Shown here: positions 7,893 to 30,500 of the stretch, in pieces
Layout of the letters: the number at the start of each line of letters is the position of its first letter
Position numbering within the stretch: position 1 is the first letter of the stretch
Virus record (IMG/VR): IMGVR_UViG_3300025536_000027
Span: 1-36,765 of that record
From: a virus
Strand: one strand, 5' to 3'
Length of the DNA stretch: 36,765 nt
Translations under genes and position numbers: made by a program
The notes under the pieces: generated by a model
What the model saw: the letters and a program-made list of their open reading frames with translations, nothing else
What the model was told of the DNA's origin: nothing
The model's database searches: none

Positions 7893-7914
7893 TCGAAACC
7901 AGAAACGGAGTGAA

Positions 7915-7947
7915 GGCCGGAGGGCGCCCTTTGCGGCGCCCTCGGCC
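7915..7947 (+). terminator. GC-rich hairpin after the capsid gene
   Basis: GGCCG-g-AGGGCGCC pairs with GGCGCCCTCGGCC around a CTTTGC loop, giving a 13-bp stem with one bulged G. It lies 23 bases after the capsid stop. No T-run follows, so it may be a processing or mRNA-stabilising hairpin or an attenuator that allows read-through into the next gene, rather than a full terminator. Confidence 0.5.
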
Positions 7948-7960
7948 GTTACAGGAGACG

Positions 7961-8404
7961 ATGATGCACAAAGTAACCGTCGACAATGGCTTGTTCCGGG
8001 TGGGGGCGGGGCAACTGCTCGGGCTGTCGCCCGCCCAGGTGAAGGACCGGCGCCATAAGCTGGACCGGGCGCCCGATGCGGTTGTGCCGCGCGGACGCGG
8101 CAAGGAAACCGATGGCTGGAGCTTCTGGACCGCCCGCGAGGCGCAGGAGTTCCGGAGAGGCGAGGTTCTGTTGATCGCCATCACCGATCTGACCCGGACG
8201 CAGCAGGCCGCACTCGCGGTCAGCGACGAGCGGATCGCCGCGGCCCGGGCCGAAAAGCTGGAGGCCGAAGCCGCGGCGGCGCGCAAGGCCGCCGCCGAGA
8301 AGGCCGCCGCCGAGAAGGCCGCCGCCGAGAAGGCCGCCGCCGAGAAGGCCGCCGCCGAGAAGGCCGCCGCCGAGAAGGCCGCCGCCGAGAAGGCCGCCGC
8401 CTGA
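7961..8404 (+). CDS. Hypothetical protein with (AAAEK)7 tail
   Basis: A 147-residue protein encoded between capsid and connector genes. The N-terminal ~95 residues are a compact domain (KVTVDNGLFRVGAGQLLGLSPAQVKDRRHKL, later WSFWTAREAQEFRRGEVL) that I do not recognise; its position suggests head completion. The C-terminus is an alanine/lysine/glutamate helix ending in seven identical AAAEK units and a final AAA, which should form a long rigid alpha-helix like the central part of TolA. Two ATGs are adjacent (7961 and 7964); the AGGAG at 7953-7957 is better spaced for the second. The repeat number is likely to vary between relatives. Confidence 0.7.
   Translation: MMHKVTVDNGLFRVGAGQLLGLSPAQVKDRRHKLDRAPDAVVPRGRGKETDGWSFWTAREAQEFRRGEVLLIAITDLTRTQQAALAVSDERIAAARAEKLEAEAAAARKAAAEKAAAEKAAAEKAAAEKAAAEKAAAEKAAAEKAAA
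8288..8401. repeat. 15-bp tandem repeat, seven full units
   Basis: The unit GCCGCCGCCGAGAAG is repeated seven times without any mismatch, then nine bases of an eighth unit, ending directly at the stop codon. The lack of silent changes shows recent slippage or expansion inside the coding region. Confidence 0.95.
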
Positions 8405-9184: not shown

Positions 9185-9583
9185 ATGGGCACCCACTGGG
9201 GCAATGAAGGAACCGTCAAGTTCGGCGCCAATGCGGTGGCCGAGATCGTCGAGTGGGATCTGGATGAATCGGTCGATCCGGTCGACGACACGGCGATGGG
9301 CGACGCCTATCGCACCCACATCGCCGCGTCCGGCACCAAGAAATGGAACGGAACCTTCACCTGCCATTGGGACGAGGCCGACACCAACGGCCAGCAGGCG
9401 GCGACGGTGGGGGCCTCGGTGACGCTCAACCTCTACCCCGAGGGCGCGACTACCGGCGACAGCTACATGACTGGCACCGCCACGATCACCCAACGCGGGA
9501 TGACGGTGAAGATGGACGGCGACACCATCCGCCAGACCTTCAGTTTCCTCGGCAATGGTGCCCTGACGCGGACCACGGTCTAG
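9185..9583 (+). CDS. Tail tube protein
   Basis: The 132-residue protein starts HWGNEGTVKFGANAVAEIVEWDLDES, then TAMGDAYRTHIAASGTKKWNGTFTCHWD, and ends in a QRGMTVKMDGDTIRQTFSFLGNGAL strand region. This is the layout of small siphophage tail tube subunits, which stack as hexamers to form the tail. A strong GAGAAAGGAC leader lies upstream, and the chaperone pair and tape measure follow. Confidence comes from motif and gene order together. Confidence 0.88.
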   Translation: MGTHWGNEGTVKFGANAVAEIVEWDLDESVDPVDDTAMGDAYRTHIAASGTKKWNGTFTCHWDEADTNGQQAATVGASVTLNLYPEGATTGDSYMTGTATITQRGMTVKMDGDTIRQTFSFLGNGALTRTTV

Positions 9584-9586
9584 GCC

Positions 9587-9964
9587 ATGGCGAAGGATGA
9601 CGTTTCGCCGGTGATGCGCCAGGTTTCGGCGCATTTCAAATCGCTGACGCCGCGGGTGATCGAGGTGGCCGAATGGGGCGCGGAGGAGGGCGGGCCGTTG
9701 GTCATCTATGGGATGCCGATGAATGTGGCGGCGGCGGAGAAGATTTTTGCAGCCGGAAAGAGTTCAAGTTTCGACATGTTCGTCGAAGCGATGATCCGCC
9801 TGGCCTGCGACGCCAAGGGCGATCCGCTGTTCACCATCGCCGACCGGCCGATGCTGCGGCGGACCGGGGCCAAGGAAGTGGTGGAGCGCGTCGGGCTTGA
9901 GTTGATCAAGAGCCGCGAGGGCGACGATTTGTTTCCGTCGCGCGAGACCCGCGTAAAAAACTGA
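9587..9964 (+). CDS. Tail assembly chaperone (gpG-like)
   Basis: The 125-residue short form of the tail assembly chaperone, which coats the tape measure while the tail tube polymerises. It is mainly helical with a central EKIFAAGKSSSFDMFVEAMIRLACDAKGD segment. Its last two sense codons, AAA AAC, form part of a slippery heptamer directly before the TGA stop. A fraction of ribosomes should therefore shift to the -1 frame and make the longer form described separately. Gene order (tube, chaperones, tape measure) is exactly that of lambda V-G-GT-H. Confidence 0.88.
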   Translation: MAKDDVSPVMRQVSAHFKSLTPRVIEVAEWGAEEGGPLVIYGMPMNVAAAEKIFAAGKSSSFDMFVEAMIRLACDAKGDPLFTIADRPMLRRTGAKEVVERVGLELIKSREGDDLFPSRETRVKN

Positions 9965-10098
9965 GGGGCGAGCCCGAGCGCCTGGCGCGTTTCCGGCTCG
10001 CCGATTACCTGAAGAAGACCGTGGCCGAGATCGAGGCCATGGACTGGAACGAGTTCGAGGACTGGTTCGCGTTTCTGCAGATCAAGAACGAGAAGTAG
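9587..10098 (+). CDS. Frameshifted chaperone fusion (gpGT-like), -1 at 9961
   Basis: The predicted product of a -1 ribosomal frameshift: residues 1-125 of the short chaperone, then 45 residues read from 9961 in the -1 frame and ending at the TAG at 10096-10098, about 170 residues in all. The added part (LADYLKKTVAEIEAMDWNEF, then EDWFAFLQ) looks like real protein, with a Trp/Glu-rich helix typical of gpT extensions that bind the tail tube or tape measure. The -1 frame has no good start of its own before an internal ATG at 10039, which supports production by fusion. Not proven without expression data. Confidence 0.8.
9955..10002 (+). promoter_or_regulatory. Programmed -1 frameshift signal
   Basis: The heptamer A AAA AAC (9955-9961) is in the correct phase: the zero-frame codons are AAA and AAC, followed at once by TGA. 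After a 5-base spacer the arms GGCGAGCC (9967-9974) and GGCTCGCC (9995-10002) can form a perfect 8-bp GC-rich stem. These are the three parts expected of a -1 frameshift cassette. Confidence 0.88.
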
Positions 10099-10128: not shown

Positions 10129-11910
10129 ATGGCCACCACCGCGCGGCTTGGCGTTGACATCGTCGCGGCCGACAAGTCGCGCGCCGCGTTCGATGCATTC
10201 TCGCGTTCGCTGCGCCAGGCCCAGGCCGAGCAGCGGCGCTTCGGGGCGGTGGCCAACGAGGCGTTCCTGGGCTTCGGGCGGGGCTTGCGCTCGGCGGCGG
10301 CGGCGATGGGGGTGACGTTCGGGGTGGGGGCGCTGGCCGCCTTCGCCAAGTCGGCGGTGACCGATCTCGCCGCGATCAAGGACCAGGCGGAGCGCGCCGG
10401 GCTGGCGATCTCCGACATGCAGTCGCTGACCTTCGTGGCCCGCCAGGGCGGCGGCGAACAGGGCGATATCGTCGACATTTTTCAGAAGATGAACAAGGCC
10501 CTAGGCGAGGCCAAGCAGGGCCATGGCGATCTCGGGGCTATCCTCGCCGCCAACAACATCAAGCTCACCGATGCCGCCGGTCACGCCCGCGACAATAAGG
10601 AAATATTCCTCGACATCGTCGACCTGGTGCGGGGGGCTGGCGATGAAATCGACCGCGCGCGCATCCTGCATGCGGCGTTTTCGCGGTCGGCCCAGGATGC
10701 CCTGCCGTTCCTGAAGGACGGCGCCGACGCGATCCGCGCGGGCGAGGACGCGGCGCGGGACGTCGGGGCCGTGATCGATGAGGATATCGTCAAGAAGGCG
10801 GCGGTATTCGACGACGTATGGACGGCGGCCTGGGACGGCTGGATGGCTCTGGCCAAGGCCAATATCGTCTCCGTCGGTAGCGTCATGGCTGATATGATCC
10901 GGGGACATAAACTACAGGACTTTACACCCGCCGAATCCGCGGCGAATCAACTGGAAGAATTGCAATTCGCCAGGGACGAAGTTAACAGGGCGAGAGCCGA
11001 GCTTGAGAGGGAAAAATTAATCGGATCGTCGGATGCCAGGATTGCCCTCTCCGCCGGCAACCTCGACGAGGCGCTGGCGTTTCTAAAGGCCGTCCAGCAG
11101 AATATGACCGGCGGACTCTTTGGCGACAAGGGACAGGGGCGGATCGGCGGGTTTGGTTTCACGACCAAGATGCCGGAGAAGCCGGAGAAGCCGGAGAAGC
11201 CGGTTACCTCGCGCACCGCCTCGACCGCCGCCATCGTGGCGGAGCGCGATGCCGCCGACGAACTGATCGAGAGGCTGGAGTATGAGCGCGCGCTGATCGG
11301 CATGACCGATGCCGAGCGGGCCGTGGCCACCAACCTGCGCGCCGCCGGGGCCGATGCCACGGCGGAACAGACTGCCGAAATCGAGCGGCTGACCAATGCG
11401 ATGACCGCCGAGGTGGAGGCCCAAAAGAGTCTGGAGGCCGCCACGGCCGCCGCCAATAAGTTCGGCCGGTCGATCGCCTCGGCGCTGGAGGATGGCGTCA
11501 CCAATCTGATCACCGGCGCCGATAATCTCAAGGGCGCCATCGGCTCCGTGCTGCAACAGCTGGAACGCCTGGCTCTATCGAAGGGCTTCGAGGCGCTGCT
11601 GGGGGCGGGCGGCCCGCTCGGCGCCGGCGGGTTGGGCGGAATCTTCTCTTCGATCTTCGGCGGAGGCTTCGGCGGGTTGCGGGCCGAAGGCGGGCCGGTG
11701 TCGGCGGGGCGGAGCTATCTGGTGGGAGAGCGCGGACCCGAACTGTTCACGCCCTCGGGCTCGGGCCAGATCACGCCGAACGGCATGGGCGGATCGACCG
11801 TCATCAACGTGCACATCTCGACGCCCTCGCCGGAAGCCTTTCGCAAGAGCCAGGGCCAGATACGGCAGCAGCTCGCCTCCGCCGTGGCGGCGGGGCAGAG
11901 GTACGCCTAG
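10129..11910 (+). CDS. Tail tape measure protein
   Basis: A 593-residue protein that sets tail length and helps DNA pass through the membrane. It is short for a tape measure, predicting a short tail. The N-terminal half is helical with repeated Ala-rich heptads, and a hydrophobic stretch (AAAAMGVTFGVGALAAFAKSAV) lies near residues 56-77. Residues about 355-370 carry a MPEKPEKPEKP linker. The end is typical: EGGPVSAGRSYLVGERGPEL followed by FTPSGSG. In mid-gene (10900-11000) the DNA is less GC-rich than the rest. The adjacent chaperones confirm the role. Confidence 0.92.
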   Translation: MATTARLGVDIVAADKSRAAFDAFSRSLRQAQAEQRRFGAVANEAFLGFGRGLRSAAAAMGVTFGVGALAAFAKSAVTDLAAIKDQAERAGLAISDMQSLTFVARQGGGEQGDIVDIFQKMNKALGEAKQGHGDLGAILAANNIKLTDAAGHARDNKEIFLDIVDLVRGAGDEIDRARILHAAFSRSAQDALPFLKDGADAIRAGEDAARDVGAVIDEDIVKKAAVFDDVWTAAWDGWMALAKANIVSVGSVMADMIRGHKLQDFTPAESAANQLEELQFARDEVNRARAELEREKLIGSSDARIALSAGNLDEALAFLKAVQQNMTGGLFGDKGQGRIGGFGFTTKMPEKPEKPEKPVTSRTASTAAIVAERDAADELIERLEYERALIGMTDAERAVATNLRAAGADATAEQTAEIERLTNAMTAEVEAQKSLEAATAAANKFGRSIASALEDGVTNLITGADNLKGAIGSVLQQLERLALSKGFEALLGAGGPLGAGGLGGIFSSIFGGGFGGLRAEGGPVSAGRSYLVGERGPELFTPSGSGQITPNGMGGSTVINVHISTPSPEAFRKSQGQIRQQLASAVAAGQRYA

Positions 11911-11946: not shown

Positions 11947-12585
11947 ATGTCGTTCGACGAGGTGCGCTTCCCGGTCAACATCAGCATCGGCGCCACGGGC
12001 GGGCCGACGCGGCGCACCGAGGTGGTGACCCTGGGCTCGGGCTTCGAGGAGCGCAACGCGCTGTGGGCCAATTCGCGGCGGCGCTACAACGCGGGCTACG
12101 GCGCCAAGACCATCGACCTCATTCACGCCGTCATCGAATTCTGGGAGGCGCGCAACGGCAGGCTGATCGGCTTCCGGTGGAAGGACTGGAGCGATTACAA
12201 ATCGGTGGCGCCGCTGGTGGCGGTGCAGCCCGGAGACCAGGCCATCGGCGCCGGCACCGGGGCTCTCGCCACGTTTCAACTGGTCAAGACCTACACCAGC
12301 GGCGGGCGCTCTTTCGTGAGGACCATCGCCAAGCCGGTGGCGGGGAGCGTGCGGGTGGCGGTGGCGGGGGTCGAAAAGACCATCACGACGCAATGGACCA
12401 TCGATACCGCGACCGGCATCGTGACCTTCACCGGCGGCAATATTCCAACCCTTGGCCAGGCGGTGACGGCGGGGTTCGAATTCGACGTGCCGGTGCGTTT
12501 CGACATGGACGAGCTGTCGATCTCGATTCCCGACATTCGCGCCGGGCAGATCGCCGACATTCCGATTGTCGAGATCAGGATATAG
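11947..12585 (+). CDS. DUF2460 distal tail protein (GTA gp12-like)
   Basis: The 212-residue protein opens with MSFDEVRFPVNISIGATGGP and continues RTEVVTLGSGFEERNALWAN and WRKDWSDYKS-type motifs (here FRWKDWSDYKS), all hallmarks of the DUF2460 family. Members include the distal tail protein of the Rhodobacter gene transfer agent. It would form the hexameric ring joining tail tube and baseplate. It is followed by the DUF2163, NlpC/P60 and TIM-barrel genes in the canonical GTA order. Confidence 0.93.
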   Translation: MSFDEVRFPVNISIGATGGPTRRTEVVTLGSGFEERNALWANSRRRYNAGYGAKTIDLIHAVIEFWEARNGRLIGFRWKDWSDYKSVAPLVAVQPGDQAIGAGTGALATFQLVKTYTSGGRSFVRTIAKPVAGSVRVAVAGVEKTITTQWTIDTATGIVTFTGGNIPTLGQAVTAGFEFDVPVRFDMDELSISIPDIRAGQIADIPIVEIRI

Positions 12586-12589
12586 CGAA

Positions 12590-13483
12590 GTGAAAAACAT
12601 CTCCGCCGCCCTGCAGGCCCACCTCGACACCGGCGCCACCACCCTGTGCTGGTGCTGGAAGGTGACGCGCGGCGACGGGCTGGTGCAGGGCTTCACCAAC
12701 CACGACCGGGCCTTGACCGTCGCGGCGGTCACCTACGAGGCGGCTTCGGGCTTCACCGCGTCCGAGGTGGCGAAATCCCTCGGGCTGTCGGTTGACAATC
12801 TGAGCGTTCAGGGCGCGCTGAGCTCGGCCTCGCTCAACGAGGCGGATCTGGCGGCGGGCTATTACGACGGCGCGACGATCGCCATCACTCTGGTCAACTG
12901 GGCCGACACGTCCCAGGCGCAGTTGCTGCACGAGGGGCCGCTCGGCGATGTCAAGCGCGGCAAAACGGCGTTCGAGGCCGAGCTGCTGGGCAAGGCCGAG
13001 CTGCTCAACGTCGAGCGCGGGCGGCGCTTCGCCTATCAATGCGACGCCACGCTGGGCGACGCGCGCTGCACCATCGATCTGACCTCCGCCACCTACAAGG
13101 GCACCGGTGCCGTCACTTCGGTGATCGATCCGCGCCGCCTGGTGGTGTCGGGGCTTTCGGCCTACGCCGATGCGTGGTTTTCCGGGGGCAGGATTTTGTT
13201 CAGCTCGGGGGCGAATTCGGGGTTGGCCATGGAAGTCAAGCGCCACGTGGCGACCTCCACCCAGGTCCGGCTCGAGCTGTGGCGCGCCATGCCGGAGACT
13301 GTCGCCGCCGCCGATGCCTTCGCGGTGACGGCGGGCTGCGACAAGCAGTTCGAGACGTGCAAGGCGAGGTTCGGCAACGCGGTGAATTTCCGGGGCTTCC
13401 CCTACATGATCGGCAACGACGCGCTCCAGGCCAATGCCAGGCCCGGCGAGAATTTCGGCGGCGGCTCGCGCTATGGAAACTGA
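12590..13483 (+). CDS. DUF2163 tail protein (GTA gp13-like)
   Basis: The 297-residue baseplate hub-type protein begins KNISAALQAHLDTGATTLCW and contains GFTNHDRAL, ASGFTASEVAKSLGL, and the C-terminal CDKQFETCKARFGN and NFRGFPYMIGND motifs characteristic of DUF2163 proteins of gene transfer agents. I use the GTG at 12590, which gives the family's usual N-terminus; an upstream TTG would extend it into the previous gene. The conserved cysteines in the C-terminal motif resemble the metal-binding hub region of the GTA protein; that part is inference. Confidence 0.92.
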   Translation: MKNISAALQAHLDTGATTLCWCWKVTRGDGLVQGFTNHDRALTVAAVTYEAASGFTASEVAKSLGLSVDNLSVQGALSSASLNEADLAAGYYDGATIAITLVNWADTSQAQLLHEGPLGDVKRGKTAFEAELLGKAELLNVERGRRFAYQCDATLGDARCTIDLTSATYKGTGAVTSVIDPRRLVVSGLSAYADAWFSGGRILFSSGANSGLAMEVKRHVATSTQVRLELWRAMPETVAAADAFAVTAGCDKQFETCKARFGNAVNFRGFPYMIGNDALQANARPGENFGGGSRYGN

Positions 13484-13487
13484 TCGC

Positions 13488-13970
13488 ATGAGCGCGGCGC
13501 TGATCGTCGAAACGGCGCGCGGCTGGATCGGCACGCCCTACCTGCATCAGGCCAGCCTCAAGGGCAAGGGCTGCGATTGCCTGGGCCTGCTGACCGGCGT
13601 GTGGCGCGAACTGGGCGGCCCCCAGCTCGACATCCCCGCCTATTCCATGGGTTGGGGCGAGGCCACCGGGGCTGAGGTGATGGTCGAGCGCATGAGGCCC
13701 CACCTCACGGAGATCGCCGTCGCCGCGATGGAGCCCGGCGACGTGGCGGTGTTCCGCATGCGGATGAATTGTCCGGCCAAGCATTGCGGCATCGTGGCGG
13801 AGCGCGGCGGCGCCGTGACGGTCATCCATGCCCGCGCCCGGCGCGCCGTGGCGGAGGAGGAGATGGGCCGGGAACTGACGCGGCGGATCGCCCATGTGTT
13901 CCGCGTGCCCGGCGATTTGCAAGCGCAAACGCCGGGCGATTTGCAAGCGCAAACGCCGGAGTTGTTCTGA
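13488..13970 (+). CDS. NlpC/P60 tail peptidase (GTA gp14-like)
   Basis: A 160-residue cell-wall peptidase carried in the tail tip. The motif GTPYLHQASLKGKGCDCLGL places the catalytic cysteine at residue 31, and AKHCGIV provides the histidine at 99. It would cleave peptidoglycan during DNA entry. The start at 13488 has GGAAA 8 bases upstream; an in-frame ATG at 13473 is possible. Two copies of an eight-residue unit (GDLQAQTP) close the protein, coded by a 24-bp tandem duplication not expected in this family. The stop shares one base with the next ATG. Confidence 0.92.
   Translation: MSAALIVETARGWIGTPYLHQASLKGKGCDCLGLLTGVWRELGGPQLDIPAYSMGWGEATGAEVMVERMRPHLTEIAVAAMEPGDVAVFRMRMNCPAKHCGIVAERGGAVTVIHARARRAVAEEEMGRELTRRIAHVFRVPGDLQAQTPGDLQAQTPELF
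13911..13958. repeat. 24-bp tandem duplication with internal hairpins
   Basis: Two identical 24-bp units run end to end (13911-13934, 13935-13958). Each contains TTTGC-AAGC-GCAAA, a small perfect stem-loop. They encode GDLQAQTP twice at the end of the NlpC/P60 gene. Confidence 0.93.
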
Positions 13971-16900
13971 TGGCCACCGTTGTCCTGGGCGCCGTCGGCT
14001 CGGCGATCGGCGGGCCGGTAGGCGGCGCCATCGGTTCGGTGATCGGCTCGGTGATCGACAATTTCGTCATCGGCCTGCTCACCCCGGCGCAGAAGGTCGA
14101 GGGGCCGCGGCTCAACGACATCAACGTCCAGACCTCGACCGAGGGGGCGGGCATCCCGCGCGGCTTCGGCTATCACCGGCTGGCCGGCCAGGTGTTCTGG
14201 GCCAGCCGTTTCACCGAGACCAAACAGACCACGAGCTCGGGCGGCGGCGGCAAGGGCGGCGGCGGCGGGGCCAAGACCAAAACAACGGAATATCTTTATT
14301 CGGTGTCCTTCGCGGTGGGGCTGTGCCAGGGCGAGGTGGCGCGGCACGGCCGCATCTGGGCCAACGGCGAGCTGCTCGACACCTCGGGCCTCACCCTGCG
14401 GTTCTATCCCGGCTCCGAGACGCAGAGCGCCGACGTGCTGATGGAGCAGATCGAGGGCACGGGCAACAACCCGGCCTATCGCGGCCTGTGCTATCTGGTG
14501 TTCGAGGATTTTCCGCTGGCCGATTACGGCAACGGCCTGCCGCAATTGCAGGTCGAATTGGTGCGGGCTCTCGGCGCCGGCTCGGCGGGGGCGCTCGAGG
14601 ACGCGGTCGAAGCGGTGACGCTCATTCCGGGGGCTGGAGAATTCGCCTATTCGACCGCGCTGATCTCCGCCAACGACGGCGACGGCGGATCGGCGCCGGA
14701 GAATTCGGCCACGCCCTCGGTGGGCGCCGACATCGTCAACTCGCTTGACGACCTCGAGGCGGTGCTGCCAAACTGCGCCAACGTCTCGCTGGTCACCGGC
14801 TGGTTCGGCTCGGATCTGCGGGTGGGCAGCTGCGCTATCAGGCCCAAGGTCGACAACGCCGACAAGGACACCAGCCCGGACAGCTGGCAAGTGTCGGGTG
14901 TCGCGCGTGGCGCCGCCCAGGTGGTGTCGAGCCACGACGGCGGCCCGGCCTATGGCGGCACGCCGTCCGACAAATCGGTGTTCGAGGCGATCACCGAGCT
15001 CAAGGCCCGGGGGCTCGGCGTCACGTTCTATCCGTTCATCCTGATGGACGTGGCCGAGGGAAATTCGCTGCCCGATCCGCGCACCGGGTTCCCCTATCAG
15101 CCGCAGTATCCGTGGCGGGGCCGCATCACTTGCGATCCCGCGCCGATGGCCCAGAACCTCGCCGTCCGCACCGCGGACTTTTCCGGCTATGTCGTGACAT
15201 CGACGCCGGTGCTCACCTATGCCCAGGCCGATCCCTGGGGCGGCACGGAGGCCATTGCGGTCGAGGATGACGACGGGGCGGCGGCGGAAGCGCTGAACAC
15301 CTCGCCGTTGGTGACGTCGCCCGCCGTGGGCGCCAGGATTTTCGGCGCGGTATTCGTCAGGAAAAACCCCGCCGCCACCTGGTTCGCGACCCTGCGGATC
15401 GCGATCAACGCCGGGGGCGGCGTCGTCGCCGATCTGAAACTCGATCTCACCTCCGGCGCCCTGGCCACGGTCCCCGGCGCCGGGGTGACGGTGCACGCAT
15501 CCGGCGTCGACAGCGTCTACGACGATGCGGGGGTGGAATGGTACCGGGTGTGGGGCATCGTCAGCCATGACACCACCGTGCCCTCGGCGCGGCTCTTGAT
15601 GTTCCCCGCCGCCGGCACGGTTTTTCCGACCAGCTCGGTGGCGGCGCTGGGCACCGCGCGCTTCGCCGGGCCGCAGATCGCGGTGTCCGCCGTCAAGCTC
15701 GACTACTACCGCAATCCATCGGGCTCCGAGGTGGTGACGGTGGACAAGACGGCCACGGCGGCAACCCAGTTGGAGAACTTCGTGGGCACCGCCGCGGCCG
15801 GCGATTTCGGGGCGTGGAACGGCGACACCATCCCCTATTCCGGCCCGGCCGAGTGGACGTTCCGCCGCATGATCCTGCACTACGCCAAGCTGTGCGCGGC
15901 GGCGGGGGGCGTGGATAATTTCCTGATCGGGTCCGAGCTGGTGGGGCTGACGCAGATGCGCTCCGCCGCCGCGACCTATCCCTTCGTGGCCGACCTGCAG
16001 ACGCTGGCCGCCGATGTGTCCGCCATCCTCGGAGGCGCAACCCTGGTGGGCTATGCCGCCGACTGGTCGGAGTATCACTCGCACCGGCCCACGGACGGAT
16101 CGGGCGATATCTATTTCAACCTCGACCCCTTGTGGGCCGACGCCAACATCGACTTCATCGGCATCGACAATTACCTGCCGGCCAGCGACTGGCGCGACGG
16201 CGTCTCTCACCTCGACTATGACGCCGTCAACGGCCCGTGGCGGATCCACGACACGGACTATCTCCAGGCCAACATCGCCGGCGGCGAGTATCACGCGTGG
16301 TACTACGCCAGTTCAGCGGATCGCGACGCCCAGACGCGCACCACCATCGCCGACAACCTCTATGGCTACCCGTGGATTTTCGGCCAGAAGCGGCTGCGCG
16401 ACTGGTGGTCGAGCTTCCATCATTCGCGGGCCGCTGGACAGCAGAGCAACCTGCTGCCGGATTCCGGAAATCCGCAAAGCGCCGCCTGGACATTGCTCGG
16501 CGGCGCGGTCAAGACGGCGGTGGTTGGCACTCATCTGGAATACTTCGCCCTGGCCGCCGAGGTGGCCTCGGGCGGCAACAGCGCCGACCGGATTACCCGG
16601 TTCACGGCGGCGGTCGCGGCGACGGGCACCTACCGGGTCACGGCGCTGTTCAAAGCGGGCACCAGTGGCAAGCGGTTTCTGCGCATGGCCTGCTCCGCCA
16701 ATTCGCTGGGGCTGTCGGGCACCATCGGCGCGGCTCCCACCTACGCAAACGTGGGATTCAGCTATTCCAATTTCAGCGAGACCGATCTGGGTGGCGGCTA
16801 CTGGCGCGCCCAGATCGATGTGGTCAGCAATGCCGCGGCGGCGCTGGCGGTGCAGTTCGGTCCTAACAGTGCCGTGGCTGGGGAAAACGTCGTGCTGGTG

Positions 16901-18952
16901 GGCGCCGATGTCGTCCGCCTCGACGCCACCAGCTCGGCAAGCACTGGACTCGCCGCGCAGGCGAAACCCATCTGGTTTACCGAACTGGGCTGCCCGGCCA
17001 TCGACAAGGGGGCCAACCAGCCCAACGTGTTCACCGATCCGAAATCCTCCGAGAGCTTCGCTCCCTATTATTCGAGCGGGGAGCGCGACGACCTGATCCA
17101 GCGCATGTTCATCGAGGCGCACTATGCGTGGTGGGGCGATGTGGCGAACAACCCGGTATCGTCCGTGTACGGACAGCCGATGGTAGACACCGCGCACATC
17201 TTCGCCTGGACATGGGACGCCAGGCCGTTTCCGTTCTTCCCGGCCTTCGAGACGATATGGACGGACGCCGCCAACTATCATCTCGGCCACTGGCTCAACG
17301 GGCGGGCCGGGGCGGTGCCGCTCGATCTGCTGGTCTCCCGCATCTGCGACGATCACGGCTTCGCCGATTACGACGTGTCCGATCTCCGGGGCATGGTCAC
17401 CGGCTACATCGTCACCGGGCCGATGACGGCGCGAGCAGCACTGCAGCCGCTGATGACGGCGCTGCATTTCGACGCGGTCGAATCCGGGGGGCTGGTGAAA
17501 TTCGTCATGCGGGGGAGGCCCGCCGCCACCGCGGCCGACGAGGATGGCGTGGTGATGCCGGAAGACGGTGGCGCCAGCCTGGCCTGCGAGCTGAGCCGCA
17601 CCGCCGAAACCGCGTTGCCGGTGGCCTTCCGCATTTCCTACATCGAGGCCTCGGTGGACTACCGGGTGGCCCAGGTCGAGCAGCAGCGCCTGGGCGGCGA
17701 CGCGATCCGCGTCGTCGAGGCCTCGCTGCCGCTGATGATGGACCAGGGCCAGGCCATCGGCGTCGGCGAGCGGCTGATCCAGCAGGCCTGGCTGGAGCGC
17801 GAGCAGGCGTCATTCACACTGCCGCCGTCGCTCATGGCGCTCGATCCCGGCGACGAGGTTGAGTTGACCTTCGGCGGGCGTCAGCGCCGCCTGCGGCTCA
17901 CATCGGCGGCGATCGGGCGGGCGCTCGAAGTCAAGGCATCCGGCACCGATCCCTCGCTGTACGAGCCGTTCCGGGGGCCGCGGCGGGCCATGGGTGCGGT
18001 GTCGCGCATCGCGGTGCCGGGCCGGGCGCTGCTGGTGTTCGCCGATCTGCCTGTGCTGTCGAGCGAGGCCAACGCCTGGGCGCCCTATCTCGGCGTCTAC
18101 GCCACGCCGTGGGCGGGTGCTGTCAACATCCACCGGAGCTCGGCGGACGAGGGCTACACGCTCGACACCCAGGTCACGAAACGGGTGGCGATGGGGGTGA
18201 CCGGCGGCACGCTCGGCATCGGGCCGGAATCGATCTGGGACATGGGCAACACCATCAGCGTGCGGATTTACGAGGGAACGCTGGCCAGCGCCTCGGAACT
18301 CGAGGTGCTGAACGGGGCCAACGCCATCGCGGTCGAGAACGCCGATGGCGATTGGGAGATTCTGCAATTCGTCACCGCCACCCTGACCGGCACCCAGACA
18401 TGGACCCTGTCGCAACTGCTGCGCGGCCAGCTCGGCACCGAGGCCGCGATGGTGGGCGTGGCGGCGGGAGCCCGGGTGCTGGTGCTCGACGACAATCTCT
18501 ATCAGCCGGGTATGCCGCGCAGCCAGTTCGCACTGCCCTTCTACTATCGCTGGGGACCGGCGACGCAAGCGATCGGCTCGGATTCGTACCAGACCGAGGT
18601 TTTTACCGGCGAAGGGGTGGGGTTGCGCTGTTATTCCCCGGTGCAGGTGTCGAGCGTCACGGCGGCGGGCGACGTGACGATCTCGTGGGTGCGCCGCGAC
18701 CGGATCGGCGGCGACGCATGGGAGGCCACCGAAATTCCGATGAGCGAATCGGCGGAGAGTTACGAGTTGGACGTGTTCGACGGCGCGGCGGTGGTCCGCA
18801 CCCTGACCGCCGCGACGCCTGAAGCAACCTACACGGCGGCGCAGATGACAACCGATTTCGGGGCGCCGCCTTCGAGCTTTGACATCGAGGTCTATCAGAT
18901 ATCGTCGATCACCGGGCGGGGCACGGGCCGCGCCGCCACCATCACTGTGTGA
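13970..18952 (+). CDS. GTA-type TIM-barrel tail tip / host specificity protein
   Basis: A giant 1660-residue homologue of GTA gp15. It begins with a glycine-rich hydrophobic helix, then a baseplate-hub region (to about 300), then the GTA TIM-barrel domain with glycosidase-like glutamates in GSEL (E656) and FTELGCPA (E1005). A phage-tail domain spans about 1105-1340 and beta-sandwich modules follow to the end. Two segments, residues about 396-577 and 827-995, interrupt the barrel and resemble carbohydrate-binding jelly rolls. The protein probably binds and degrades surface glycans and anchors the fibres. ATG 13970 overlaps the previous TGA by one base; upstream frame is open by chance. Confidence 0.92.
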   Translation: MATVVLGAVGSAIGGPVGGAIGSVIGSVIDNFVIGLLTPAQKVEGPRLNDINVQTSTEGAGIPRGFGYHRLAGQVFWASRFTETKQTTSSGGGGKGGGGGAKTKTTEYLYSVSFAVGLCQGEVARHGRIWANGELLDTSGLTLRFYPGSETQSADVLMEQIEGTGNNPAYRGLCYLVFEDFPLADYGNGLPQLQVELVRALGAGSAGALEDAVEAVTLIPGAGEFAYSTALISANDGDGGSAPENSATPSVGADIVNSLDDLEAVLPNCANVSLVTGWFGSDLRVGSCAIRPKVDNADKDTSPDSWQVSGVARGAAQVVSSHDGGPAYGGTPSDKSVFEAITELKARGLGVTFYPFILMDVAEGNSLPDPRTGFPYQPQYPWRGRITCDPAPMAQNLAVRTADFSGYVVTSTPVLTYAQADPWGGTEAIAVEDDDGAAAEALNTSPLVTSPAVGARIFGAVFVRKNPAATWFATLRIAINAGGGVVADLKLDLTSGALATVPGAGVTVHASGVDSVYDDAGVEWYRVWGIVSHDTTVPSARLLMFPAAGTVFPTSSVAALGTARFAGPQIAVSAVKLDYYRNPSGSEVVTVDKTATAATQLENFVGTAAAGDFGAWNGDTIPYSGPAEWTFRRMILHYAKLCAAAGGVDNFLIGSELVGLTQMRSAAATYPFVADLQTLAADVSAILGGATLVGYAADWSEYHSHRPTDGSGDIYFNLDPLWADANIDFIGIDNYLPASDWRDGVSHLDYDAVNGPWRIHDTDYLQANIAGGEYHAWYYASSADRDAQTRTTIADNLYGYPWIFGQKRLRDWWSSFHHSRAAGQQSNLLPDSGNPQSAAWTLLGGAVKTAVVGTHLEYFALAAEVASGGNSADRITRFTAAVAATGTYRVTALFKAGTSGKRFLRMACSANSLGLSGTIGAAPTYANVGFSYSNFSETDLGGGYWRAQIDVVSNAAAALAVQFGPNSAVAGENVVLVGADVVRLDATSSASTGLAAQAKPIWFTELGCPAIDKGANQPNVFTDPKSSESFAPYYSSGERDDLIQRMFIEAHYAWWGDVANNPVSSVYGQPMVDTAHIFAWTWDARPFPFFPAFETIWTDAANYHLGHWLNGRAGAVPLDLLVSRICDDHGFADYDVSDLRGMVTGYIVTGPMTARAALQPLMTALHFDAVESGGLVKFVMRGRPAATAADEDGVVMPEDGGASLACELSRTAETALPVAFRISYIEASVDYRVAQVEQQRLGGDAIRVVEASLPLMMDQGQAIGVGERLIQQAWLEREQASFTLPPSLMALDPGDEVELTFGGRQRRLRLTSAAIGRALEVKASGTDPSLYEPFRGPRRAMGAVSRIAVPGRALLVFADLPVLSSEANAWAPYLGVYATPWAGAVNIHRSSADEGYTLDTQVTKRVAMGVTGGTLGIGPESIWDMGNTISVRIYEGTLASASELEVLNGANAIAVENADGDWEILQFVTATLTGTQTWTLSQLLRGQLGTEAAMVGVAAGARVLVLDDNLYQPGMPRSQFALPFYYRWGPATQAIGSDSYQTEVFTGEGVGLRCYSPVQVSSVTAAGDVTISWVRRDRIGGDAWEATEIPMSESAESYELDVFDGAAVVRTLTAATPEATYTAAQMTTDFGAPPSSFDIEVYQISSITGRGTGRAATITV

Positions 18953-24114: not shown

Positions 24115-25695
24115 TCATGCCACCCTCCTGAAGACAAACTCCATTGGGGGGGCGGTCAACAACGCTCTCCCGCTACCAGGCGCTCCCCCCAACAGTGGGG
24201 TGAGGCTGCCGGACACTTCAATCGTATAATCGCGGTGGACCGTGACGCGGGCCACGAGGCGGCGGAAGGCATCGAGATGCTCGGGCGCGCGGGCGGCAAG
24301 CGTTGCCACCGCGGCGCGCAGGTCCGCCAGCATGGCGCGGAACCTCGCCAGGGCCGATGTGTTGAGATGGACCACCGGCGGTTCGCCATAGTCGGCTTGT
24401 TCCGCGGCGAGGCGGCGCTTCTCGGATTCAAGGGCGGCTATCTTCGGCCCCATGGTTTCGGCACTGACGGTTCCCGCGATCAACAGCCCCACGGCCCGGT
24501 CCAGATCGGCCGCCACGGTGGCGAGCCGCCGCTCGGTCTCTGACCGGTTCCCGGCCCGGTCCCGCGCCAGGCGGCGGAGCTCGGTGTTGTAGGCCCGAAC
24601 ATATTCCCGCGCCGCTTCGTCATGCCCCAGGTGCTCGACCATCCCCTCGATCACCGCCGCCTCGATCCGGTCGAGATAGTAGCTGCCCCGGTTTTCGCAG
24701 TCGCCGGACTCGGCCAGCCTGGTGCAACGGATGCGGATGCGGCCCGCCGACCGGTCATGGACAGACATGCCCCCGCCGCAACAGGGGCAGGCCAGCAGGC
24801 CGGACAGCAGGTGCCTGGGTGCGCGGGTGTAGCCCCCGGCCCCCGGCCCCCTGCGGCGCTCCTGAGCCGCATCGAACTGGGCACGGGACACCACGGCAAG
24901 GGCGGGGGCTTCGCTCCTCACCCACAGATGCCGGGGGTTGGCCCGCGACACCCGGCGGCGGCTTTCGGGATCCCGAGCCATGTGGACCTTGTTCCACACG
25001 ATCACTCCGGCATAGAGTTCGTTGCCGAGGATGCCGTTGCCGCGTTGGCCCCAGCCGTTGATGGTGGAGGCGTTCCACCTCGAGCCGCGCGGCGGGGCGA
25101 TGCCGTCCCGGTTCAACTCCCCGGCGATGAGCCGCGGCGACTTGCCGCCCAGGAAATCGGCGAAGATGCGGCGCACCACCTGGGCCTCGGGCTCGACAAT
25201 CTCCATCCGCCCCGGCTCGCCCTTCACCGGGCGATAGCCATAGGCCCGCCCCCCGGCGTGCAGCCCGTCCCGGACCCTCCCCTGCATGCCGCGCCTGATC
25301 TTGTCGACCATGCCGCTGAGCATGATCGATGATACGAGGCCGGAGACGCTGGCCTTGAGCGAGTCGAGCTCGCCGCCCGACACCTGCTGGATGGTGACGC
25401 CGGCGAAGTTCAGCGCGTCCCGGATGTCGTGGATGTCGCCGGGGTGGCGCGACAGCCGGTCGCCATGCTCGACGATTACGGCGGCGAACCCCCGCGCCTT
25501 GGCGTCCCGGAGCAGCCGCATGAGGCCCATGCGGTCATGAAATCTCGATCCCGACATGGCGCGGTCATCGTAGAGGCGCACCACGTCGTAGCCGTTGCTT
25601 AGCGCCCAGTCCCGGCAAAGCGTGACCTGGTCCTCGATCGATCTGTCGGACTGGAGGTCCGAACTGTAGCGGGCGTAGATCGCGGCGGGGGTCAT
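24115..25695 (-). CDS. Large serine recombinase (integrase)
   Basis: A 526-residue site-specific recombinase that would integrate and excise the phage. The resolvase-like catalytic domain (1-145) holds the nucleophile Ser11 in YARYSSDLQ, with SIEDQ after it and DRLSR at 79-83. The recombinase DNA-binding domain spans about 150-265. A zinc ribbon follows with C303, C306, C324 and C333, and then a coiled-coil region (about 365-435). The domain order and length are typical of phage large serine integrases. Its ATG overlaps the upstream small gene as ATGA. It ends the leftward operon and points at the candidate attachment region. Confidence 0.95.
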   Translation of the reverse strand: MTPAAIYARYSSDLQSDRSIEDQVTLCRDWALSNGYDVVRLYDDRAMSGSRFHDRMGLMRLLRDAKARGFAAVIVEHGDRLSRHPGDIHDIRDALNFAGVTIQQVSGGELDSLKASVSGLVSSIMLSGMVDKIRRGMQGRVRDGLHAGGRAYGYRPVKGEPGRMEIVEPEAQVVRRIFADFLGGKSPRLIAGELNRDGIAPPRGSRWNASTINGWGQRGNGILGNELYAGVIVWNKVHMARDPESRRRVSRANPRHLWVRSEAPALAVVSRAQFDAAQERRRGPGAGGYTRAPRHLLSGLLACPCCGGGMSVHDRSAGRIRIRCTRLAESGDCENRGSYYLDRIEAAVIEGMVEHLGHDEAAREYVRAYNTELRRLARDRAGNRSETERRLATVAADLDRAVGLLIAGTVSAETMGPKIAALESEKRRLAAEQADYGEPPVVHLNTSALARFRAMLADLRAAVATLAARAPEHLDAFRRLVARVTVHRDYTIEVSGSLTPLLGGAPGSGRALLTAPPMEFVFRRVA

Positions 25696-29495: not shown

Positions 29496-29683
29496 GGAGC
29501 GCGGCATCCGGAGGAAAGGCCCGGAGCCGGGGAGGATGCCGGCTCCGGGCAGGTGGCCGGCGCTACCCATGATGCGCCGGCAGGGAAAGCGGGATTGAGG
29601 GCGCGCGCCTCGATGGCCAGGGCGCGGCGGGCGGAGGCGGCCAGTTCGGCCACGATCGCGGCAACGGCGGGATCGCGGGTCAT
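29492..29683 (-). CDS. Small hypothetical protein
   Basis: A 63-residue peptide with an Ala-rich helix (AVAAIVAELAASARRALAIE) and a Pro/Ser/Cys-rich tail. Overlaps with both neighbours by four bases keep it in the coupled chain. The tail may be non-conserved. No function is visible. Its start region is nearly identical to that of the upstream ligase-like gene. Confidence 0.5.
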   Translation of the reverse strand: MTRDPAVAAIVAELAASARRALAIEARALNPAFPAGASWVAPATCPEPASSPAPGLSSGCRAP

Positions 29684-30276
29684 GCCGCCCGCCTCATGTC
29701 GCCGGCGTCATAGGAAGGCTTTCTCTTCAACAGCCCCGGCGAGCGTCCCCCCGCGTAGAGGGAGTCTGCATCGCGGATCATCGCGCCTTCGAACCCCTCG
29801 CCGATCCATCCATCATAGAGGCAGTCCGCCTCGTGCCTTGATTTCACCTCGACCGTGGGCACGGCGTAGACGGCTCCGGCCGTGCCGGGGACGATTGCGG
29901 CAAGCCGCTCGTGACGTTCGGCGAAGCGGCGGCCATGGAGGCTGGCGATATCGAATACGTGAAGCGCGAGCGGCGTGGCGGCGGATGGCTTCTGGTACAG
30001 GGAAAGGGTGCGCGGCAAATCGTGGCGGAGGCCGTGGTTGTAAAGTTCACCATCGAGAACCAGGCCGGGGTGCTCGGCAAACACCGGCGCGAGCGCTGCG
30101 GCGATGTGATCGTGGCCGGCGATGCGAAGCAGGTTCCGCGTCCACAGGCCGCCGCTGTTGGCCAGACAGCGGACGCCGTTCAACTTCGGCTGCAGGATGG
30201 CGCGCAACGGCATCCGCCCCCCGAAAGTCAACGCCAGCATGGGAAGTGATTGTGGGGCGCCATGGTCGCGGGTCAT
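29680..30276 (-). CDS. Minimal ATP-dependent DNA ligase-like protein
   Basis: A 198-residue nucleotidyltransferase domain. Motif I KLNGVR (31-36) places the AMP-accepting lysine at K31. Motif III is LDGELYN (74-80), motif IV EGFEGAMIR (160-168) and motif V LLKRKP (182-187). The protein stops 11 residues after motif V, so the OB-fold domain (normally about 90 more residues) is absent. It could still be adenylated but would need a partner, or be a degenerate nick-binding protein. The 268-residue open frame begins upstream of 30276 with Arg/His-rich shadow, so the internal ATG is chosen. Confidence 0.82.
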   Translation of the reverse strand: MTRDHGAPQSLPMLALTFGGRMPLRAILQPKLNGVRCLANSGGLWTRNLLRIAGHDHIAAALAPVFAEHPGLVLDGELYNHGLRHDLPRTLSLYQKPSAATPLALHVFDIASLHGRRFAERHERLAAIVPGTAGAVYAVPTVEVKSRHEADCLYDGWIGEGFEGAMIRDADSLYAGGRSPGLLKRKPSYDAGDMRRAA

Positions 30277-30281
30277 GCCGG

Positions 30282-30452
30282 TCACAGCCCCGGACCGTTG
30301 GGCCAGTCGCCGTAGTCCCAGCCCTCGACGTCGCGGCGGGCGCGGTTGCGCCAGGCGCGGCGCGCGGTGTGGACGATGAACACGGCCCCGGCCAGCGCCA
30401 GGCCGAGAACGGCCCCGGTGAGCAGCGTGTGGAGGATGGGGGGTATGGTCAT
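30282..30452 (-). CDS. Small single-pass membrane protein
   Basis: A 56-residue protein at the head of the leftward operon: MTIPPILHTLLTGAVLGLAL, then AGAVFIVHTARRAWRNRARR, and an acidic Trp-containing tail (VEGWDYGDWPNGPGL). One transmembrane helix is followed by a very basic stretch, so the tail should face the cytoplasm. It is 5 bases upstream of the ligase-like gene and downstream of the candidate promoter region. Not recognised. Confidence 0.65.
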   Translation of the reverse strand: MTIPPILHTLLTGAVLGLALAGAVFIVHTARRAWRNRARRDVEGWDYGDWPNGPGL

Positions 30453-30500
30453 GGAAACACCCGGCGGCGGTTGATTCGGGGTGCATGGTAGTATGACTTA

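Follow-up and report, generated by a model that had tools for sequence, protein, structure and literature searches.

The tail chaperone locus

The window analysed here is a linear IMG/VR virus record (IMGVR_UViG_3300025536_000027; 36,765 nt) in which the genes for head closure, tail terminator, major tail protein, G, T and tape measure protein follow one another in a lambda-like order. The G ORF (9587-9964, plus strand; 125 aa) is preceded by the major tail protein gene (9185-9583, plus strand; phrog_10528). The T segment (9961-10098, plus strand), a candidate gpT-like C-terminal extension in the -1 frame, is followed by the tape measure protein gene (10129-11910, plus strand; phrog_10574, E 3.6e-40), and thus G and T occupy the position typical of tail chaperones, between the major tail protein and tape measure genes.

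The 3' end of G reads GTA AAA AAC TGA, and contains the heptamer A AAA AAC (9955-9961, plus strand), which the G frame splits as A|AAA|AAC and which is therefore an X XXY YYZ slippery sequence in phase with the upstream ORF. The TGA stop of G (9962-9964, plus strand) lies directly 3' of the heptamer, and the -1 frame continues beyond it for 45 codons, from CTG at 9961 to AAG at 10095, ending with TAG at 10096-10098. A spacer of 5 nt, which includes the stop codon (9962-9966, plus strand), separates the heptamer from a stem of 8 bp, whose 5' arm GGCGAGCC (9967-9974, plus strand) and 3' arm GGCTCGCC (9995-10002, plus strand) are perfectly complementary, and whose 20-nt loop could itself pair internally. 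A first-pass annotation of this DNA had described the in-phase heptamer with its adjacent TGA, the 5-base spacer and perfect stem, and the 45 downstream codons, and all of these hold to the base. The motif AAAAAACTRA occurs once in the window against an expectation of 0.01, while for AAAAAAC alone the count is 5 and the expectation 1.03. The lysine codons of the window's structural genes are AAG in 75 cases and AAA in 11, so that the AAA at Lys124 is a minority choice.

By themselves, neither window G nor window T matched Pfam or PHROG at E 0.001. However, the G part of 16 of the 24 aligned family members, window G not being among these, matches phrog_344 (“tail assembly chaperone”), and an AlphaFold model of window G (pLDDT 83.8) finds as its best PDB match in Foldseek the HK97 tail assembly chaperone 2OB9 (probability 1.00, E 4e-3; TM 0.47-0.59; sequence identity 18-19%), followed by YqbN (3KLU). 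On the basis of its relatives' phrog_344 matches and its own predicted structure, we identify G as a gpG-like tail assembly chaperone. Homologous T segments match phrog_337 (“tail protein”), down to E 1.8e-30, and window T aligns to relatives that do so, which identifies it, by way of these sequence matches, as homologous to known T proteins. Additionally, phrog_16513 covers both the G and the T halves within one protein. The closest comparisons among named phages are with Roseobacter CRP phages, Pelagibacter HTVC026P/202P and Sinorhizobium phi3LM21, where G is about 25% identical to window G and the segment from the heptamer into T is 30-43% identical to its window counterpart. When this segment (KKL onward) is aligned with the corresponding frame of Sinorhizobium, Pelagibacter and Roseobacter phages, identities range from 21 to 43%.

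Several other features of the window deserve mention. Just 5' of the head closure gene, an ORF at 7910-8404 contains a perfect 15-bp tandem repeat (8285-8401; 7.8 copies) encoding AAAEK repeats. Positions 11947-18952 carry tail-tip genes of gene-transfer-agent type (DUF2460, Gp84/BR0599 hub, NlpC/P60-like, GTA_TIM, Rcc01698), here joined to a lambda-like head module (GpA terminase, Phage_portal_2, S49 peptidase). A large serine recombinase gene with Resolvase, Recombinase and Zn ribbon domains (24115-25695, minus strand) suggests a temperate phage, and a protein with an ATP-dependent DNA ligase domain is encoded at 29680-30486 (minus strand).

Conservation among relatives

Relatives were collected by tblastn with the predicted G-T fusion as query, for which both halves match in Sinorhizobium, Pelagibacter and Roseobacter phages (in several of them as two separate pieces), by tblastn with one T segment, which provided the Moraxella phages, and by a search of viral contigs with a T-domain profile, which found 343 relatives, 80 of them retrieved. 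Neither the heptamer nor the stop served as a criterion in these searches, although a mild bias arises from the two lysines read across the heptamer that the tblastn queries include. Sites were located by a script that searches for AAAAAA with C, G or T as the next base; such a site was present in all 80 viral loci, and consequently no relative was dropped for want of one. One further relative (L028), missed by the script's T-motif filter, also carries A AAA AAC TAA. Removal of redundancy at 90% identity or more left 42 non-redundant cassettes, Sinorhizobium, Pelagibacter, Roseobacter and Moraxella phages among them. When window G or the tape measure protein was used alone to search the viral contigs, no relatives were returned; searches with the terminase and DUF2460 returned mostly unrelated tail modules, and Rfam gave no match. 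A scan of genome contigs produced only two distant relatives, one of which (L192) has a longer A-run in the cassette region and the other (L193) no A AAA AAC cassette.

The heptamer is A AAA AAC in 41 of the 42 non-redundant homologues and A AAA AAG in the remaining one, counts that, like all those pooled here, overstate independence given the shared ancestry of the relatives and do not amount to exact probabilities. In the remainder of these genes lysine is encoded by AAG more often than AAA (292 to 204) and asparagine by AAT more often than AAC (170 to 113), yet the two codons of the heptamer are almost always kept as AAA AAC, so that both heptamer and phase are conserved beyond what protein coding requires. 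This agreement across the family, more than the statistics of the window, makes the cassette convincing. In one IMG/VR contig (L039, about 2000-2120) an apparent single-nucleotide indel, probably an assembly error, interrupts the G ORF, with A AAA AAC TGA intact downstream.

The stop appears similarly constrained. In 39 of the 42 nothing separates it from the heptamer (for instance A AAA AAC TAA in Roseobacter CRP phages and Pelagibacter HTVC026P/202P, and A AAA AAG TAA in HTVC111P). In two others it comes one codon later, as in Sinorhizobium phi3LM21 with A AAA AAC GAC TGA, and in the last it is displaced by seven codons. The first-pass annotation had called the placement of the stop unusually tidy, but among relatives this is the norm, and it recurs in a second chaperone family described below. 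Where the second residue of T is arginine, AGR codons account for 20 of 21 cases, compared with 54 of 217 arginine codons (25%) elsewhere. Since AGR after CTA or CTG creates a stop in the 0 frame, this bias suggests that the adjacent stop is itself under selection, and is no mere by-product of the T peptide. In the papers on tail-chaperone frameshifting that we consulted, we did not find DNA-level evidence stated for the upkeep of this stop.

Downstream RNA structure

Structures that stimulate -1 frameshifting from 5-9 nt downstream of the heptamer are common, though not obligatory. In the window, the fold of the stem is unexceptional against dinucleotide shuffles (z = -0.26) and not significantly more stable than synonymous recodings that keep the T peptide (z = -1.5, p = 0.07), so that, in DNA this rich in GC, the stem is unremarkable by itself. 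Across the 42 relatives, however, when 50-nt segments were folded and their energies set against those of synonymous recodings, the position directly 3' of the heptamer had a mean z of -1.73, with 13 of 42 below -3, whereas eight control positions along G and T had means between -0.81 and +0.38 with at most two below -3. Among the relatives, stems begin some 4-7 nt 3' of the heptamer, and in several no hairpin is evident. The perfect stem noted at first pass stands, and hairpins at its position are enriched across the family, but its own stability falls short of significance (p~0.07). We think it rather likely that the window stem, a putative stimulator, promotes frameshifting.

In a looser non-redundant set, 20 of 72 sequences have a common 15-bp hairpin that begins roughly 6 nt beyond the heptamer; its changes are mostly G-U and one-sided, with few two-sided ones. 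We considered, and rejected, homology between this hairpin and the 8-bp stem of the window, given that the 3' arms differ and only 6 of the 15 pairs are formed. With the same start and a different 3' arm, the window stem appears to be analogous rather than the same hairpin. A Shine-Dalgarno-like GAGGA 5' of the heptamer is common in relatives and absent in the window; as it overlaps the coding of Val/Ile-Glu-Glu/Asp, we make no claim for it.

Probable ribosomal slippage and its alternatives

The sequence anatomy, its conservation, the selection visible at codon level and the predicted fold of G are direct observations, and we conclude that the locus very probably undergoes programmed -1 ribosomal frameshifting, yielding gpG- and gpGT-like proteins; a -1 frameshift joining the G and T tail chaperones, as originally proposed, is thus strongly supported by heptamer, phase and T peptide. 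One alternative is that T is a separate small gene with its own translation, or with reinitiation after the G stop, and never part of a fusion. Some records do annotate it as a separate ORF (e.g. phi3LM21_p41), and the first-pass annotation had named relatives with an independently started downstream gene as a finding that would overturn its proposal. We looked for these, and found that in the close family a start is often missing from the T frame: eight of the 42 lack any ATG, GTG or TTG there, and their conserved T could hardly be produced except by fusion. In the window itself the first start is a GTG at 10021, inside the T domain and 3' of the conserved LADYL segment, whereas T is conserved from the heptamer (KKL) onward. 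An independent T gene is, on this evidence, extremely unlikely.

A polymerase that adds one A within the A-run, such that some mRNAs encode G-T in frame, would yield nearly the same fusion, and the run is indeed A7 in 32 of the 42 relatives and A9 in two. Yet it is only A6 in the window and seven other relatives, which is short for polymerase slippage, and no long homopolymer is maintained, since the run varies from 6 to 9. What is conserved is not run length but the exact ribosomal heptamer, including its final C, and its phase; moreover, members of the second chaperone family use G GGA AAC, which has no A-run. We regard transcriptional slippage as very unlikely here. The window being an IMG/VR virus record, and homopolymers being prone to error, the two frames might also reflect a base gained or lost in the A-run during sequencing or assembly, or else gene decay. 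This reading has next to no likelihood, and is refuted by conservation: the identical frame relation is found at the same base in isolate genomes and in the 42 non-redundant sequences.

Comparison with known systems

Tail-chaperone -1 frameshifting has long been known, and the window is a clear further case. It was described for gpG/gpGT of lambda and homologues (Xu, Hendrix and Duda 2004, as cited in PMC3556154 and PMC5313236) and is reviewed in PMC5009743, according to which G is the part that binds the tape measure protein and T the one that brings in the major tail protein, G is in large excess over GT (about 30:1), and both are absent from the virion. The window resembles lambda in having a two-frame chaperone gene between the major tail protein and tape measure genes, a heptamer of the X XXY YYZ type for a -1 slip, and, as predicted, G alone together with a low-level G-T fusion. 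The slippery sequence of lambda is G GGA AAG; the window differs in its A AAA AAC, in the 0-frame stop directly after the heptamer, and in a T extension of only 45 aa.

The same heptamer-plus-stop layout is already in print for Acinetobacter phage Loki, in which gp12/gp13 have A AAA AAC then TAA at the end of the chaperone gene and a T segment in the -1 frame (PMC5313236); however, Loki G belongs to phrog_313/8233 rather than phrog_344, and its T is longer. Caulobacter phage phiCbK, which shares an alphaproteobacterial host as a point of likeness, has an annotated programmed frameshift in gp93/gp94 (PMC3556154) with A AAA AAC directly before a TAA stop; unlike the window, it is a large phage, its G matches phrog_8233, and its T is much longer. 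We confirmed both layouts in the sequences of these phages. In the second, Loki-like chaperone family (phrog_313), A AAA AAC or G GGA AAC directly precedes the stop in 8 of 10 phages sampled (L317, L318, L319, L320, L322, L324, L325 and L326, near position 820), while in MP1412 and MW2 (L321, L323) G GGA AAC lies 13 codons before it. The layout is thus common, being the norm among relatives of the window and recurring in a second family.

Closer to the window, the Roseobacter CRP-8xx phages, Pelagibacter HTVC026P/202P and Sinorhizobium phi3LM21 carry homologues of G and T, placed in the two corresponding frames and with A AAA AAC as heptamer, and the stop directly follows the heptamer in all but phi3LM21, where it comes one codon later. 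No frameshift is annotated in the records of the Roseobacter CRP, Pelagibacter and Sinorhizobium phi3LM21 phages that we examined. In Streptomyces phage Rooney (L006:1500-1560), G GGA AAC stands at the homologous point of the chaperone gene, the 0-frame stop follows many codons later, and GKLRSRPERL aligns with KKLRGEPERL of the window.

A proposed mechanism

Under the proposed -1 frameshift, the majority of ribosomes would translate G (9587-9961, 125 aa) and terminate at the TGA at 9962. In a minority, AAA and AAC would be decoded and both tRNAs would slip back one base onto AAA AAA, after which translation would proceed through CTG AGG GGC to give a fusion of 170 residues (...ETRVKN-LRGEPERL...KNEK), of which the predicted tryptic junction peptide is N-L-R only. 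That ribosomes slip, the rate at which they do so, and the roles of hairpin and stop we infer from the sequence. The hairpin 5 nt downstream would probably assist slippage; the stop at the next codon would end G exactly at the shift point, and would probably set a release factor in competition with slippage. By homology to lambda, G would act as a gpG-like chaperone that coats the tape measure protein, and the T extension of GT would recruit the major tail protein. In E. coli, A_AAA_AAC is reported to be much less shift-prone than A_AAA_AAG (PMC5009743), which fits a fusion made at a low level, and two phage tail chaperone frameshifts that have been tested had reported efficiencies of 6-7% (PMC3711429).

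The displaced stops of some relatives indicate that adjacency is not obligatory. Even so, the release factor may tune the ratio of G to GT in the phage of the window. A broader suggestion, which we offer tentatively and consider somewhat improbable, is that X XXA AAC with an immediate stop forms a release-factor-coupled cassette that sets the gpG:gpGT ratio and has been adopted repeatedly by different tail-chaperone families; slippage would then follow translocation, at a point when the stop occupies the A site, and the level of release factor would determine the ratio.

These results add to viromes a well-conserved and largely unannotated frameshift family, in whose examined records T is either overlooked or given as a hypothetical gene of its own. 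A simple DNA signature, consisting of A AAA AAC, a stop and the start of the T motif, identifies its members with high specificity, given that all 80 matches retrieved by this pattern in a search of viral contigs are true G-T cassettes. If the adjacent stop is functional, the ratio of the two tail chaperones would depend on release factors, and translation termination would be linked to tail assembly.
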